Shown: piece by piece, positions 476-18,244 of the stretch | How the letters are laid out: every line of letters begins with the position of its first letter | How positions within the stretch are numbered: the first letter of the stretch is position 1 | Source: an uncultured Planctomycetia bacterium | GTDB lineage: Bacteria; Planctomycetota; Phycisphaerae; FEN-1346; JAACEH01 | Assembly: GCA_903929765.1 (NCBI GenBank) | Contig: CAIYVX010000009.1 | Location: 1-61,460, forward strand | Direction of reading: 5' to 3' | DNA length: 61,460 nt | Translations under genes and position numbers: made by a program | The notes under the pieces: model-generated | Databases searched by the model: none | Seen by the model: the letters and a program-made list of their open reading frames with translations, nothing else | Told to the model about the DNA's origin: nothing

Positions 476-1627
476 TCAAGAAGTCCAGGGATCATCGGGG
501 ATGGTCACCGGGACAGGCTGAATTCTCGGCGTATTGAGTACGATCTTGGGCATATCTATCAGACGAGGTGTCGGCCAGGGAGGGGCCGCGACTTTGCGTC
601 GCGCCATGTATTGGCGGAACCAGTCGAATTTGACGGGTTCCAGTTCGCTCAGCCGCGGGACATGGTGGTTGGGCACAACGTATCCCAGCCGATTCAACCA
701 GGCCTCGGGCGACGGACAAGTCTCGTAGCTCGTGCTCTGTAGTGCGGCTTCAAAGAGCTGGAGCGTTTCGGGCAGTTGGGCCTTCAGGATGTCGCGAGCA
801 CGCGACAGTGAAGGTCCGGAGCGACGAAGAAGGTCATCCTGGTCGAAGGCCCCGCCGTCCGAAATCGACGGAGCGCCCTGGTCGATGGTCAGGAACTCGA
901 CGCACAGAACGGCCAGCGAAAAACGGTCGGCGTGAGGACACCAAGAGACGGAAGGTTCGAATCTGTCCCCTCGCCAAACAAAGGGTGCGATGTAGCCACT
1001 GGTTCCGCAGGTCGTTTCGGCGGGCATCTGGACATTCGGATGATAAAGGCTGTCGAAATCGATCAGAAAGACCGTCAGACTGCTGAGATCGATCAGAATG
1101 TTACCGGCCGAGAGGTCGCGATGGGAGCAACCGCGCTCTTCCAACAGGCGGACCAGCTCGGTCAGGTTCCGGCAAAGGAGCAGACGCCGGCCTTTCGGCA
1201 GGCTTAGGGTGCCGTCGCGGAGGTCGTCCGCCACGGCGGCCCAGTCCTTGCCTGCCACACAAGGCATCAAGACCGACCCGTCCAGCCAAGCCGCCAACGT
1301 CTTGGAGTAGTGACACCCCTGAGCTTTTGCCAGATCGGACGGCTGAAGGACTTTTCGCTCTGTTCCCGCTAAGAACCCGCTCTGGCTGGGCAGCAGTTTG
1401 CTCACGGCGTCGAGGTAGCGCCGGTCCAAATTCCTGCCGGCCCTGAATTTCTTCAGGATCCAGCGTCTGCCGTCCGCGGCCTCAAGCACGTAGGCGTGGG
1501 CCTGGCCCCGTTGCATGACGATCGGTATGTCGGGAAGCAGGGGATTCTCCAGGGGACGAACCGAGAGGTCGCAAATCCGGGCTGGTTTGCGGGCACGCAG
1601 CAGAGTTTCCATGACCTCAACGGACAT
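476..1627 (-). CDS. protein-kinase-like protein (serine/threonine kinase fold)
   Basis: This 383-residue soluble protein shows the landmarks of a eukaryotic-type kinase. They are a candidate ATP-binding lysine in WILKKF (about 59-60), the catalytic loop HRDLSAGN (169-176), a metal-binding DFD in place of DFG (190-192), a P+1/APE-like segment GTSGYIAPF (208-216) and an aspartate in a helix-F-like stretch (ADRFSLAV). No glycine-rich loop of classic form and no membrane segment is evident. Its ATG overlaps the end of the phosphatase gene by 11 bp, indicating translational coupling. Kinase plus PP2C in one operon suggests reversible phosphorylation of a shared target. The DFD variant raises the possibility of altered metal use, but the other catalytic residues are present. 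Confidence 0.85.
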   Translation of the reverse strand: MSVEVMETLLRARKPARICDLSVRPLENPLLPDIPIVMQRGQAHAYVLEAADGRRWILKKFRAGRNLDRRYLDAVSKLLPSQSGFLAGTERKVLQPSDLAKAQGCHYSKTLAAWLDGSVLMPCVAGKDWAAVADDLRDGTLSLPKGRRLLLCRNLTELVRLLEERGCSHRDLSAGNILIDLSSLTVFLIDFDSLYHPNVQMPAETTCGTSGYIAPFVWRGDRFEPSVSWCPHADRFSLAVLCVEFLTIDQGAPSISDGGAFDQDDLLRRSGPSLSRARDILKAQLPETLQLFEAALQSTSYETCPSPEAWLNRLGYVVPNHHVPRLSELEPVKFDWFRQYMARRKVAAPPWPTPRLIDMPKIVLNTPRIQPVPVTIPDDPWTS

Positions 1628-3098
1628 AGGTGGACGTCCTTTCGGAAAGGGCCTTCTCCTGGTCCGGCCTGGCCGTGGGAACCGGTCGCACCCAAATCAA
1701 GGAAACGTCGTCATCACCTGCTCCTGCCGCCAGGCGCCGATGCACGTCGTCGAGCGCCTGGGCCCGCCGGGCGTCATCACTGAGAGCATCTTGATGGGCC
1801 TGTAACCAAGCCCACATTTCCCGGGAATTGTGAAAGCTGCTGTAGAAACCGTCGCTGGCCAGTACAAAATGGACGTCGGGCTCGAACCGTTCTGTAAAGA
1901 GCGTCCAGCGGCCATTCTCGAAATGGTCCGGAAAGACGGCCGTGACCGAGCTCTTGCCGTCAAAGGACGCCTCCGGGGTGAGACCGGGACCACCAACCGT
2001 CGTCTTGATGTTCCGGGAGTAGAGAAAACGGCAGTATTGCCGTGCCTTCGGGTCAGTGGAGAAGTCGGCGAGGTAATAAGGGACGAGCAGCAGATTGTCA
2101 GTCCCAAGGGCGATCTGTTGTGAAGACTTGGAGCGGGCCTTAGCTGTGTTAGGACTCTTGGAACAAAGGTCCAGGGGCAGACAGATGAGCCAGTGCCCGG
2201 CGTTTTCGGGACTAAGTCCGGCTTGGCGGGCCAGGGCAGGCCTGGTGGACGCGTCGCCAAGCACCTTGGCCAGGAGCTCATCTCCGGGCTCGAACGTGAG
2301 TCCGCAGGATCGTTTAAGGGGCAGGTTGTCTTCCGGAGCGTTCGCGTTCGCAGGAAAACTGAGGGAGGAAGCCAACAAACGCCCATCGGGGGTAAAGGCA
2401 CCGAAAAAGGAATCACCGCAGGAGATGCCCTTGACTTGCACGGCCCCATTGGACGGACACAGGCGAATGGCCACCAGCGTAGTCTGGAAGCCCTTAGCCA
2501 GCTTCTTCCTCAGGATTTCCTGCAACAGCCGGCCCATGACGGGATTGGCGGCGGTGCTGGTGTCGATCTCGGCCTGCTGGGCCGCGGCTCGACAGGAGAA
2601 CAACGTTTCGCACAGGCCGGCCAGCCGTTCGTGGGTGTTGCCCTTCAGCAGGCCGGGGCTGGCCTTAACCGCAAGGTCAGCGGCTATGGCGGAGTGCAGA
2701 GAACGAGTAGTCCCGTCGGCCACGGCGCCAACCAGCTCGGTGTCGTACCAGGCAGCGCGGTCCTGATCCTTGTCCTCGCCGCTCAAACAGGCGGGCGAGA
2801 CGGCCGTGACGACTGAGTATAAACCGTTGGTATGCGGTGCCGCTGGCGGTCCAAGGTCATGGTCATTTCCGGCGCATAAGTCGGCCCGGTGATAAGGAAT
2901 CCTTTCGCCACATGAGCCGAGCCGTTGAGCAGCATGGTGAACTGGTGTTACGAATCCTCGAATCCGCAGAGGGACCGTGTAATCCAGACGTACTACTGGC
3001 AACGATTGACGTACGACATCTCGCGGTCCAGCAGACGCAGCGACTGCTGCGGTGTTTGGAGCGGCGCAAACGGTGGGGATGGTTTGTATATTCTGCAC
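1617..3098 (-). CDS. PP2C-like protein phosphatase
   Basis: The 493-residue frame contains metal-binding motifs of the PP2C family: VADGTTRS at about 126-133, LASDGF near 425 and a closing GDDDVSLIWV near 466. PP2C enzymes remove phosphate from serine or threonine using two metal ions. The gene is followed, with 11 bp overlap, by the kinase-like gene, a cognate-pair arrangement. The first 90 or so residues look less protein-like (rich in Ala, Pro and Arg) and no good ribosome binding site was seen at 3098, so the true start may be further in. The large insert between the first and last motifs makes it longer than a minimal PP2C domain (about 250 residues). Confidence 0.75.
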   Translation of the reverse strand: MQNIQTIPTVCAAPNTAAVAASAGPRDVVRQSLPVVRLDYTVPLRIRGFVTPVHHAAQRLGSCGERIPYHRADLCAGNDHDLGPPAAPHTNGLYSVVTAVSPACLSGEDKDQDRAAWYDTELVGAVADGTTRSLHSAIAADLAVKASPGLLKGNTHERLAGLCETLFSCRAAAQQAEIDTSTAANPVMGRLLQEILRKKLAKGFQTTLVAIRLCPSNGAVQVKGISCGDSFFGAFTPDGRLLASSLSFPANANAPEDNLPLKRSCGLTFEPGDELLAKVLGDASTRPALARQAGLSPENAGHWLICLPLDLCSKSPNTAKARSKSSQQIALGTDNLLLVPYYLADFSTDPKARQYCRFLYSRNIKTTVGGPGLTPEASFDGKSSVTAVFPDHFENGRWTLFTERFEPDVHFVLASDGFYSSFHNSREMWAWLQAHQDALSDDARRAQALDDVHRRLAAGAGDDDVSLIWVRPVPTARPDQEKALSERTSTYVR

Positions 3099-3599: not shown

Positions 3600-3827
3600 A
3601 TGAATCTTACAGCTATCTTGGGAAACGACGCTTTGGCGAAGGACATGGCATCCAGACTCGAGCGAGAATGGAAGAAGGAGGTCGAGCGGGCTGTCGACAA
3701 GGTCAAATTCGGGATTCATGGCCAAAGAACGCGAGACCAGATGGACAAGTGGATCAGGCACCTGTGGTACAAGGCGGGTGCGATTCGAAACAAACAGTGT
3801 GTGGGGCCGACGATTACGAAGGATTGA
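3600..3827 (+). CDS. small helical protein of unknown function
   Basis: This 75-residue reading frame starts at an ATG. An upstream TTG at 3579 is also in frame, but it overlaps the terminator hairpin and is less likely. The protein is charged and probably helical (SRLEREWKKEVERAVDKVKF) with a basic C-terminal part. Its stop codon lies 5 bp before the preferred TTG start of the DUF123 gene, and the last codons carry the GAAGGA that would serve as that gene's ribosome binding site. This coupling supports translation of both. No family is recognised. Confidence 0.45.
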   Translation: MNLTAILGNDALAKDMASRLEREWKKEVERAVDKVKFGIHGQRTRDQMDKWIRHLWYKAGAIRNKQCVGPTITKD

Positions 3828-3832
3828 ACGTT

Positions 3833-4195
3833 TTGACGGACAGCGGCATTTACATCGTGGTCTTCCGGTTGCCGGAGCGTCAGCGAATCCAGGTCGGCAA
3901 GCTTGGCCGGTTCGTATTCGAACCGGGCTTCTACTTCTACGTAGGGAGCGCCCAGAGAAACCTTTCGGCTCGCGTTGACCGTCACGCCCGACGACGAAAA
4001 CCGCTGCGCTGGCACATCGACTATCTTTCGACCAAGGCGGCCATGGTCGGCGCCCTAATGATGCCCGGACCACGGTCGCGGGAATGCCAAGTGGCCAAAG
4101 CCCTCGCGGCCAGGTTCGATCTGGCAGTCCCGCGTTTTGGCGCCTCGGACTGTCGCTGTGTGGGGCATTTGTTCTATACGAAGCGGTTGGCGTGA
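3833..4195 (+). CDS. DUF123 family protein (GIY-YIG-like nuclease fold)
   Basis: The protein opens DSGIYIVVFRL, then VGKLGRFVFEPGFYFYVGSA, a basic HARRRKPLRWHIDYL segment and a closing FGASDCRCVGHLFY. These are hallmarks of DUF123, small proteins related to GIY-YIG endonucleases and usually about 110-140 residues; at 120 it is full length. I chose TTG 3833 because GAAGGA (3818-3823) sits 9 bp upstream and the family usually begins just before GIY. The open frame extends further back to 3668, but that part translates to non-family sequence. It probably acts on DNA in the cytoplasm; the substrate is unknown. It ends 34 bp from the convergent SprT-like gene. Confidence 0.8.
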   Translation: MTDSGIYIVVFRLPERQRIQVGKLGRFVFEPGFYFYVGSAQRNLSARVDRHARRRKPLRWHIDYLSTKAAMVGALMMPGPRSRECQVAKALAARFDLAVPRFGASDCRCVGHLFYTKRLA

Positions 4196-4229: not shown

Positions 4230-5003
4230 TCATCCACCCTGGTTGCCTTCCGCCTGTACTGGCCTGAGTCTCTCCAGCGGCACGTAGAACTTGCTGTACC
4301 GCAAACCGTCCGAGTATTTCCGGCCGTCAGCACTCTGGACCAGAACCGTGGCTCGCCGGTGAATGCGGTTGACCCGGCCGACCAGGTGTTGCCCTTCGAA
4401 GTCGAATTCGACCATGCCGCCGACGCAGACCCCGTGCTGCACGGCGGCTCGCTCGTGGACGGTCACCAGGGCGTGTCGCGCATCGGTATGGCCGAAGATG
4501 TTCGCCGCCAGGGACTTGAAACGACGGGCCGAGCAACTGGAACGCTGCCAAACCAGCAGTTCCGCCAGGTGGATGATCTCGTGCTCCATAATCCGCTGCA
4601 GGGTCTCGAGCCGGTCCTGGCAGGTTAACCCGCAGACAGTCACCGGCCGCGACACGTCACCGAAGTTCATGAACAGCATCTGGCTGGCGATAGCGATCTC
4701 GAAGCGACAGCCGCCACCGGGGCAGCGGCTCCTGTATCTGATGGTTTTGCCCCCGGCACGGGTCATCGTCGACGAGAGTCGGAACAACAGGGGGCTGTCC
4801 GCCTGGGCCTTGACGGTCTGGCCGAGCCAGCCCTCAAAGAATTGCAAGTCGTAGAGAGCAAACATGCTCGCCAGGTCTTCGGTGCCAATCTGCTCAAAGT
4901 TCGGCCGGTGGATGTGCCGTGATTCGCCCAGAATAGCATTGCGAATGGCCGCGGTCTGGGCGGCGACCACGTCGGGAGGGAAGCGTCTTGACTGAAGATC
5001 CAT
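4230..5003 (-). CDS. SprT-like zinc metalloprotease
   Basis: This 257-residue protein has a SprT-type N-terminal helix (LYDLQFFEGWLG), the zinc-binding HExxH as EHEIIH, and a third-ligand region IFGHTDARH. A C-terminal beta-rich tail follows (about 190-250: FEGQHLVGRVNRIHRR and similar). SprT/Spartan proteases cleave DNA-bound proteins, and bacterial forms are often on mobile elements. Two cysteines (RCPGGGC) sit where other SprT proteins have extra metal ligands, but no full zinc ribbon is visible. Its ATG at 5003 lies inside the start region of the divergent recombinase fusion, so the upstream region has probably been rearranged and the original promoter may be lost. Confidence 0.8.
   Translation of the reverse strand: MDLQSRRFPPDVVAAQTAAIRNAILGESRHIHRPNFEQIGTEDLASMFALYDLQFFEGWLGQTVKAQADSPLLFRLSSTMTRAGGKTIRYRSRCPGGGCRFEIAIASQMLFMNFGDVSRPVTVCGLTCQDRLETLQRIMEHEIIHLAELLVWQRSSCSARRFKSLAANIFGHTDARHALVTVHERAAVQHGVCVGGMVEFDFEGQHLVGRVNRIHRRATVLVQSADGRKYSDGLRYSKFYVPLERLRPVQAEGNQGG
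4974..4990 (+). promoter_or_regulatory. ribosome binding site deciding a TTG start
   Basis: GGGAGGG at 4974-4980 lies 7 bp before the TTG at 4988. It gives the recombinase fusion a plausible start even though the site falls inside the opposite-strand SprT-like coding sequence. Confidence 0.5.
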
Positions 5004-6388
5004 CGACCGTGCCGACCCTACTCTACAACCTGGCCATGCAGGACATTCGGCGCGGCGAAGGTGTTTGCCTCATTGACCCGCACGGCGATCTGTACCACCA
5101 GGTATGCGAGTCCATCCCCGAACACCGCGCAAATGATGTAGTTCTCCTGGACCCCTGTGATCGTGAACGGGCAGTGGGGATCAATCTGCTCGAGTGCATG
5201 GGGCCTTACCGGGAGATGCAGATCAGCTTCGTCATCAACGAGGTTCTGGCCATTCTGGCGAAACTGTACAACATGGAAACCTGTGGTGGCCCCATGTTCG
5301 AGCAGTACTTCCGCGGGGCACTCCAACTAATCATGGCTGAGCCGCAGCCGAGCATCACGATGCAGGAGTTCGCCCGGGAGCACGCCGTCGTCATGAAGGG
5401 CCAGGTTGCTCCGGGCAGTTTGTACGACCAGAGGCGAGCCTTAAGGATGTTTCTGGCTCATGTGGGTGGCAACCGAAAACTCCAGGACGTCAAGCCCTGG
5501 GACGCGGAGGCGTTTGTAGCAAAACGACTGCAAGAAGGAGTGAGTGTGGCGACCGTCAACAAGGACATCCGGACACTGAAGCGGATCTTCAACTTGGCCA
5601 TCGAGCCGCGGGGCTACCTCCTGGAGGGACGTAATCCATTCGCCATGGTTAAACAACGCCGTTATTGCCCGAAGCCGATTCGCTACGTCACTCCGGCCGA
5701 ATTCCAGGCCTTGACCGATGCGGCTGCCAGCCTGTGGTGGAAGGCACTCCTGACGGTGGCCTACACGACCGGCGCCCGCCTCGGTGAGATTCTGCACCTG
5801 ACCTGGGCGGATGTTGATTTCGAGACCAGCAGGATTCGCATCTGCCGCAAGGTGCCCACGCACGGTGCAGCGGCCTGGGAGCCCAAGGACCGGGCGGAGC
5901 GTTTGCTGCCCGTGCCCTCTCGGGCGATGCAATTCCTCGTCGACCTACAGGCCGTATCGGAGGTGGGGAATTCCAACGTGTTCATCTCGCTGGCCAGAGG
6001 ACAACATCTCCAACGACGTCGGACGAAGGGCCAGTGGGACGAGCGTCAGTGCCCGGTGAATAATTTCACCCGGGACTTCAAGTCGTTCGTACGCAGGGCC
6101 GGCGTGGGGCAGTGCAGCTTCCACGACCTGCGGCGTTCCTGCATCACCAACTGGGCGCGGGCTTTGCCGATTCACGTGGTCCGGCAACTGGCCGGTCACA
6201 GCGACATGAAGACGACGCAGACTTACTACTTGTCGGTGCAGGAAGATGATCTGGAAAGGGCCCGTGGCATTCAGTCGCAGATCCTGGAAACGAGTGCGAC
6301 TGACCCATTACTGACCCACTCGGCCCAAAAACGGTCGATTAACGGACCTGCGGGACACGGCGAGAAATCGCAACTCTCGCCGGAATAA
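4988..6388 (+). CDS. tyrosine recombinase fused behind a truncated conjugation-type ATPase
   Basis: Residues about 10-120 match the start of TraD/TraG/VirD4-like coupling ATPases: LLYNLAMQDI, then GVCLIDPHGDLYHQV, then a region ending ALQLIMAEP. The P-loop is broken; the position expected to be GKST reads TVPT, and no Walker B follows. From about residue 125 it is a complete tyrosine recombinase: an N-terminal core-binding domain, then catalytic arginine in TTGARLGE (about 264), HDLRR (about 378), AGHSD and the nucleophile in TYYLSV (about 412). The start TTG has a good ribosome binding site; ATG 5036 or an integrase-only start at ATG 5333 are alternatives. It ends 13 bp from a tRNA 3' end, so it probably drove integration there. 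Confidence 0.85.
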   Translation: MTEDPSTVPTLLYNLAMQDIRRGEGVCLIDPHGDLYHQVCESIPEHRANDVVLLDPCDRERAVGINLLECMGPYREMQISFVINEVLAILAKLYNMETCGGPMFEQYFRGALQLIMAEPQPSITMQEFAREHAVVMKGQVAPGSLYDQRRALRMFLAHVGGNRKLQDVKPWDAEAFVAKRLQEGVSVATVNKDIRTLKRIFNLAIEPRGYLLEGRNPFAMVKQRRYCPKPIRYVTPAEFQALTDAAASLWWKALLTVAYTTGARLGEILHLTWADVDFETSRIRICRKVPTHGAAAWEPKDRAERLLPVPSRAMQFLVDLQAVSEVGNSNVFISLARGQHLQRRRTKGQWDERQCPVNNFTRDFKSFVRRAGVGQCSFHDLRRSCITNWARALPIHVVRQLAGHSDMKTTQTYYLSVQEDDLERARGIQSQILETSATDPLLTHSAQKRSINGPAGHGEKSQLSPE

Positions 6389-6401
6389 GAGGTTAGAAAA
6401 G

Positions 6402-6475
6402 TGGGCCCTCTCGGACTCGAACCGAGGACACGCGGATTATGAGTCCGCTGCTCTAACCGACTGAGCTAAGGGCCC
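6402..6475 (-). tRNA. tRNA with CAT anticodon (probably Ile2, possibly elongator Met)
   Basis: The reverse strand folds as a complete cloverleaf of 74 bases. The acceptor stem is GGGCCCT paired with AGGGCCC plus a discriminator A, and the D-arm is GCTC/GAGC. The anticodon stem GCGGA/TCCGC holds loop CTCATAA, and the T-arm is CTCGG/CCGAG with TTCGAGT. CCA is not encoded. The loop gives anticodon CAT. The acceptor and D-arm resemble tRNA-Ile2 (lysidine-modified) more than elongator Met, but only a model score would settle it. The 3' end faces the recombinase gene, the usual position of an attachment site. Confidence 0.9.
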
Positions 6476-17355: not shown

Positions 17356-18244
17356 AGTTATTTATTCCTAAAAAAGTGTGGCGAATTCGGCACCCCCGAA
17401 CTCCAACAAGTATATCGACCAAAAACAAGCAGTCTAAGAAAAAATCCTAAAAAAACAGCAAAAAACATCCGTGAAAGTTGGGCAATTTGGGTTGGCGCGA
17501 ATTGTTGGAGCCTCGCGCCTTTCATACAAGTAATGGTAGGAATCCAAAACCTCTACTAGGACCGATAATATTCAACATATTATCCACAAGAGCGTCCACA
17601 CAGAATAATTTGCTTATACCCCAAATCTGTGTTAAACTGGCCTGTATTCAGTCCATAAATGACAGGGCTAGGCTGTGGCGATACTAGGAAAAACCAAACG
17701 CTGATACGTAGCCAGCGAACGGATGTAACGAAATGGGTTTTATAATATTGAAAACCCGGTCTCATGTCTGCCCGGCCGGCCTACCGTTTCGGCGATTTTT
17801 GTCGGGCTGGTAGCCGGGGACGACCACAAAAGCAACGAAGGCGTAGCAGGGGGGCGTGGAATGTCGCGGAAGTTCTGTCTATTGAGGTCTCTCGTCGTAC
17901 CAAAACCTTGCGGCGCAGGTCGCTACTCGCCAGAGGGACAGCGTAGCCGGCGCCGAAAGCCGGGGAGTAGTCTCGGACCGGCCCGTAGCCAGCCGGAGGG
18001 CGTTCCCACCGCAGTCTTACCTTCGAACTCAGCGGCTCGGCCCAGTCCCGGTCAGAGTCCCGTCTCCAGACGGAAACGAGTCCAGGGTAAGGCGACACGG
18101 TTCCCCAAAACGACAAGTGGATTTCAGCCGGTCGTTGCCGGCCCCCTCTCTGGCGCAACCTTCACCCAGCGCCAATTCGTCTTTGCCCCAGTCGCACAAC
18201 GCAGGGGGGCCGCGCGGCGAAGACTGGTGGCTCAAAAACAGGTC
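17356..18244. other. long non-coding gap with inverted repeats
   Basis: I see no convincing gene. The first 400 bp are AT-rich. A hairpin GGGTTTT (17735-17741) / AAAACCC (17751-17757) encloses TATAAT-like sequence and may mark a promoter or operator. From about 17770 the sequence turns GC-rich, and the frame of the next histidine kinase is open from 17861, but its translation (Arg/Ser/Pro-rich, no domain) looks non-coding. It may instead be a structured leader RNA; I could not match it to a known class. Confidence 0.4.

Follow-up and report, generated by a model that had tools for sequence, protein, structure and literature searches.

The tyrosine recombinases of mobile elements reportedly arose by acquiring an arm-binding domain that is described as essential for their mobility function, and simple two-domain recombinases occur on some phages and ICEs (PMC8138268). 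The lambda enzyme recognises arm sites with high affinity through its N-terminal domain, and the rest of the protein binds core sites more weakly (PMC4880445). Tn1549 Int 82N (residues 82–397) acts on short core DNA substrates in vitro (PMC5871717). The integrase described here has much in common with arm-binding-domain integrases (Tn916/Tn1549, lambda, tRNA-targeting islands), namely the core-binding and catalytic domains, the catalytic residues, a tRNA-adjacent position and arm-like repeats near att. It differs from them in that the arm-binding domain is replaced by a scrap of an ATPase gene. What remains is a two-domain core like Xer, Cre, lambda Int 75–356 and Tn1549 Int 82–397; however, simple enzymes of the Xer and Cre type are independent of arm sites, whereas arm-like sites are still present in this element. 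We consider it probable (about 0.77) that a recent one-off rearrangement swapped the arm domain for a 331-bp ATPase scrap, leaving the element probably unable to assemble normal integration and excision complexes.

The window, which is the whole stretch of 61,460 nucleotides that was analysed, is the start of contig C9 in the genome (3.83 Mb, 116 contigs) of an uncultured Planctomycetia bacterium (GTDB class Phycisphaerae). An open reading frame with a TTG start runs from 4988 to 6388 on the plus strand (466 codons, 466 aa, no internal stops). As an earlier note on this DNA had stated, an ATPase-derived part is in frame with a recombinase, and the 3′ end of a tRNA adjoins the reading frame: an intact tRNA-CAT lies 12 bp after the stop, on the opposite strand. 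The features of the locus are collected in Table 1.

Table 1. Features of the integrase end of the element (window coordinates).
Feature	Position	Strand	Evidence or remark
Serine/threonine kinase-like protein, presumed element cargo	476..1627	-	Domain match
PP2C-type phosphatase, presumed element cargo	1617..3098	-	Domain match
DUF123 (PF01986) gene, presumed element cargo	3668..4195	+	Pfam
SprT-like gene, HEIIH motif, intact to first codon	4230..5003	-	Diverges from the fused ORF, whose start it overlaps
Start region of fused ORF, not ATPase-derived	4988..5012	+	Overlaps start of divergent SprT-like gene
ATPase-derived fragment, VirD4/TraD-like, from just after P-loop GKS onward	5013..5343	+	DNA identity
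Junction 2, microhomology GAGCCG	5339..5344	+	ATPase GATCC[AG], integrase GATCCG; codon-by-codon comparison
Integrase core-binding and catalytic domains	5345..6388	+	PF00589 (E = 1.7e-23), PF02899
Catalytic codons	R 5777, K 5885, H 6122, R 6131, H 6197, Y 6224	+	Codon positions
Putative arm-type sites ACTGACCCATTACTGACCCACT, 11-bp period, in integrase C-terminal codons	6299..6320	+	Kept in homologues
att repeat, 107 bp, 2 mismatches to C107:17557-17663	6340..6446	+	Includes 46 bp of tRNA 3′ part
Intact tRNA, CAT anticodon, integration target	6401..6475	-	12 bp after the ORF stop

The tyrosine recombinase catalytic set R-K-HxxR-H-Y is present (R264, K300, H379, R382, H404, Y413). The protein had been described as a complete tyrosine recombinase, which is correct for the catalytic residues; however, only the core-binding and catalytic domains are kept, and the arm-binding domain is missing. 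This N-terminal domain was found in 31 of the 31 homologous sequences inspected (scored by pattern in 30 and by eye in L187; a few of the 31 are one gene under two locus ids) and is absent from the fused protein. The extra N-terminus of the homologues comprises roughly 60–100 residues with the pattern W-x-V-R-W ... S-K-S-F ... K-E-A. An AlphaFold2 model of one intact homologue (L041) has three strands and a helix in this region, the architecture expected of Tn916/lambda-type arm-binding domains, and the best solved structure matches to the whole model were Tn1549, lambda and Xer-type recombinases. The PHROG family 1 profile (phrog_1) was matched only from position 159 on. Translation from an internal ATG (5333 or 5360) would yield a simple two-domain recombinase that is arm-site independent, like the Xer- and Cre-type enzymes. 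ATG codons occur at 5333, 5360 and 5393, where the intact core-binding and catalytic part begins, and there is precedent for such recombinases on some phages and ICEs (PMC8138268). No SD-like sequence was found upstream of ATG 5333 or 5360, however, and the nearest relatives are all arm-domain integrases; we regard an internal start that yields such an enzyme as unlikely.

The ATPase-derived fragment aligns without gaps over 331 bp, at 81% DNA identity (E = 4e-85), with a gene of another Phycisphaerae genome (G072; L042/L036), and at 76% over 321 bp with a locus in a Hydrogenedentes MAG (L043). The donor-type gene in L036 encodes an 821-aa protein that matches PF10412 and, just below the cut-off, PF12696, and is thus of the VirD4/TraD/TraG coupling ATPase type. 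Residues 1–133 of the fused protein, which include the ATPase-derived fragment, matched no Pfam family, including no coupling-protein domain. The DNA homology bears out the claim that about 115 residues of a TraD/TraG-like ATPase with a destroyed P-loop are present: the Walker A motif is not intact, GKS(T) having been lost at the breakpoint, with VPT in its place. The likeness is confined to this stretch. Of a coupling ATPase, the P-loop, the N-terminal part and everything past residue ∼118 of the fusion are absent, and the fused protein is not an ATPase.

The ATPase homology ends sharply at both 5013 and 5343. The first junction is 10 bp upstream of the first SprT-like codon on the divergent strand, and the match starts there with the codon that follows GKS. 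At the second, the window is collinear with the ATPase before and with the integrase after a shared GA(T/G)CCG; the codons are GCG GAT CCA or AGC GAT CCG in the ATPase copies, GGC GAT CCG in an integrase (L037) and GCT GAG CCG in the window. At the protein level, MAEPQPSIT of the window aligns with M-A-D-P of the ATPase (M-A-D/E-P being the end of the homology) and with G-D-P-P-E-E-I-T of the integrase, which places the junction in the linker between the arm-binding and core-binding domains. The ATPase part is bounded by a breakpoint on either side and so represents an internal scrap, not the product of one simple deletion. The earlier proposal that a deletion in an integrative conjugative element had joined the two parts therefore holds as regards a rearrangement in a mobile element but not as regards a single simple deletion. 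It is further refined by the loss of the arm-binding domain from the integrase and by the donor ATPase, of which no further copy or remainder was found in the genome. The fragment could in principle have been joined in silico, as the assembly is fragmented and is the only one available for the species. Such a chimera would need two independent misjoins 331 bp apart, though, and the assembly contains no second copy of the fragment, nor did any collection searched yield an identical source; we judge an assembly artefact to be very improbable.

The start of the reading frame is shared with another gene. The SprT-like gene is intact, since several of its homologues have the same very start, with P-P-D/E after it. 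The GGGAGGG motif that had been read as a ribosome binding site does precede the TTG, but it is the complement of F-P-P codons in the SprT-like gene, where the proline codons are conserved. It is therefore weak evidence for translation, and the fused reading frame owes both start codon and apparent ribosome site to the antisense strand of a different gene. Any join of this kind would be in frame with a prior probability of one in three.

In the ATPase stretch, 15 synonymous and 11 nonsynonymous changes could be polarised to the window branch; the corresponding numbers for two intact copies were 16/8 and 23/19 (Fisher p = 1.0). The dN/dS of the stretch relative to L042 was 0.10. The stretch keeps the conserved positions of the family, judged against a comparison set that included two window-derived loci (L146, L149), and shows no decay. 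A rough mixture calculation leaves room for neutral time on as much as ∼30% of the window branch. The fragment has been under constraint for most of its separate history, most simply inside a working ATPase gene. A comparison of selection on the two halves had been proposed as a check; for the ATPase part it returned a low dN/dS, but this value and the conserved positions fit recent capture as well as constraint, so that the two are not separated and selection after the fusion is not implied.

The earlier note also suggested, as an alternative, that the ATPase piece had been kept as a new N-terminal module that may affect contacts with DNA or protein; such a functional module would here stand in for the arm-binding domain. 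Our data gave this no positive support, and we consider it highly unlikely. The open in-frame ORF with a strong SD-like motif, the join at a domain boundary and the conserved positions and low dN/dS of the stretch would suit such a module. They are set against a fragment that comprises neither the P-loop nor any of the ATPase past residue ∼118, an SD-like motif that is antisense to conserved SprT codons, arm-like sites that are kept when the domain to bind them is lost, and a structure model that is poor over residues 59–143 (mean pLDDT 57, too poor to use). We give just as little credence to the more specific proposal that a fused protein made from the TTG works with the ATPase segment as a substitute module (e.g. 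contacting the coupling complex of incoming elements) and recombines independently of arm sites. In addition, the fusion is known from one genome only. It was found in none of 100 relatives, in none of 397 genomes of the class searched via the ATPase part and via the integrase part, and in none of the GTDB genome contigs (six peptides) and viral contigs, a search in which exact short peptides miss diverged copies. Among plasmids and phages no record covers 80% of the query, and none of the 105 loci with an ATPase match holds both parts. Because these searches were sampled or peptide-limited, the negative result counts strongly within the class sample and less so outside it. A junction confined to this assembly had been named in advance as a refuting result that would point to an error or a one-off deletion, and this is the only place where it was found.

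On contig C107, 46 bp within the 107-bp repeat (17618–17663) match the tRNA 3′ part exactly, and that contig ends 777 bp past its att repeat. A direct repeat of the tRNA 3′ part is thus present at both element ends, as in a tRNA-integrated element. We infer, across a contig gap, that the integrase side on C9 and the far end on C107 are one element in the tRNA, of which about 6.3 kb and 0.8 kb are visible. Within the element the kinase-like and PP2C phosphatase ORFs (476–3098, minus strand) overlap by 11 bp, and the kinase-like ORF gave weak matches to PADLOC defence kinases (best E = 4.8e-10). A sigma-54-type regulator-like ORF is present with its C-terminal part at the far end on C107 (L159:17969–18440), where it runs off the contig. 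A search for an empty site in a genome of the same family (G001) detected no flanking similarity and showed that a different element resides in the orthologous tRNA-CAT (L171:10601–18377). This element measures ∼7.7 kb, encodes a distinct integrase (26% identity) and has a 24-bp tRNA repeat. The tRNA is therefore a recurrent integration site.

Putative arm-like repeats were identified in the last integrase codons (ACTGACCCATTACTGACCCACTC) and at the far end (TGACCCACTCAGTGACCCACTC). The same TGACCCACTC repeats (TGACCCA) occur at 6299 in the window with an 11-bp period and at C107:17787 with 12-bp spacing (L159:17787–17808). TGAC direct repeats with an 11-bp period were present in 20 of 29 homologous integrase 3′ ends (L174–L202) and in 0 of the 29 gene bodies; the next commonest TGAC spacing in the 3′ ends was 15 bp, with 8. 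These repeats resemble arm-type sites. As the TGACCCA repeats are kept at both ends and the arm-binding domain is absent, the arm sites appear to have outlasted their domain.

A one-off rearrangement in which an integrase lost its head explains the locus better than a new enzyme architecture does. On this reading, the window contains the right end of a mobile element that sits in a tRNA-CAT gene and whose ancestral integrase was presumably an ordinary three-domain enzyme (arm-binding, core-binding and catalytic) that recognized arm-type TGACCCA repeats at both ends. An illegitimate rearrangement would have deleted the arm-binding domain and, with it, the native start of the integrase gene. Their position would now be taken by 331 bp from the interior of a VirD4/TraD-like ATPase gene, fused in frame through a short stretch of common sequence in the linker that precedes the core-binding domain. 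Whether started at the TTG or at an internal ATG, the product would at best retain the chemistry at core sites and, by analogy with the truncated enzymes described above, might still recombine core sites. Since it could not bind arm sites, the expected outcome is a loss of regulated integration and excision that would leave the element stranded, and the ATPase scrap would have no function of its own. Points against this reading are that the ORF is fully open and in frame, that the join falls in an inter-domain linker, that the ATPase stretch is undecayed and that the element's far end is placed, across a gap, on a second contig.

A damaged element of this kind is ordinary, yet this one is unusually legible, since both junctions and both ends can be read and the missing domain can be named. 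It offers a naturally occurring deletion of the arm domain in which the arm-like sites persist. The arm-like repeats at the 3′ end of this integrase family may be useful for locating where tRNA-integrated elements of Phycisphaerae terminate.
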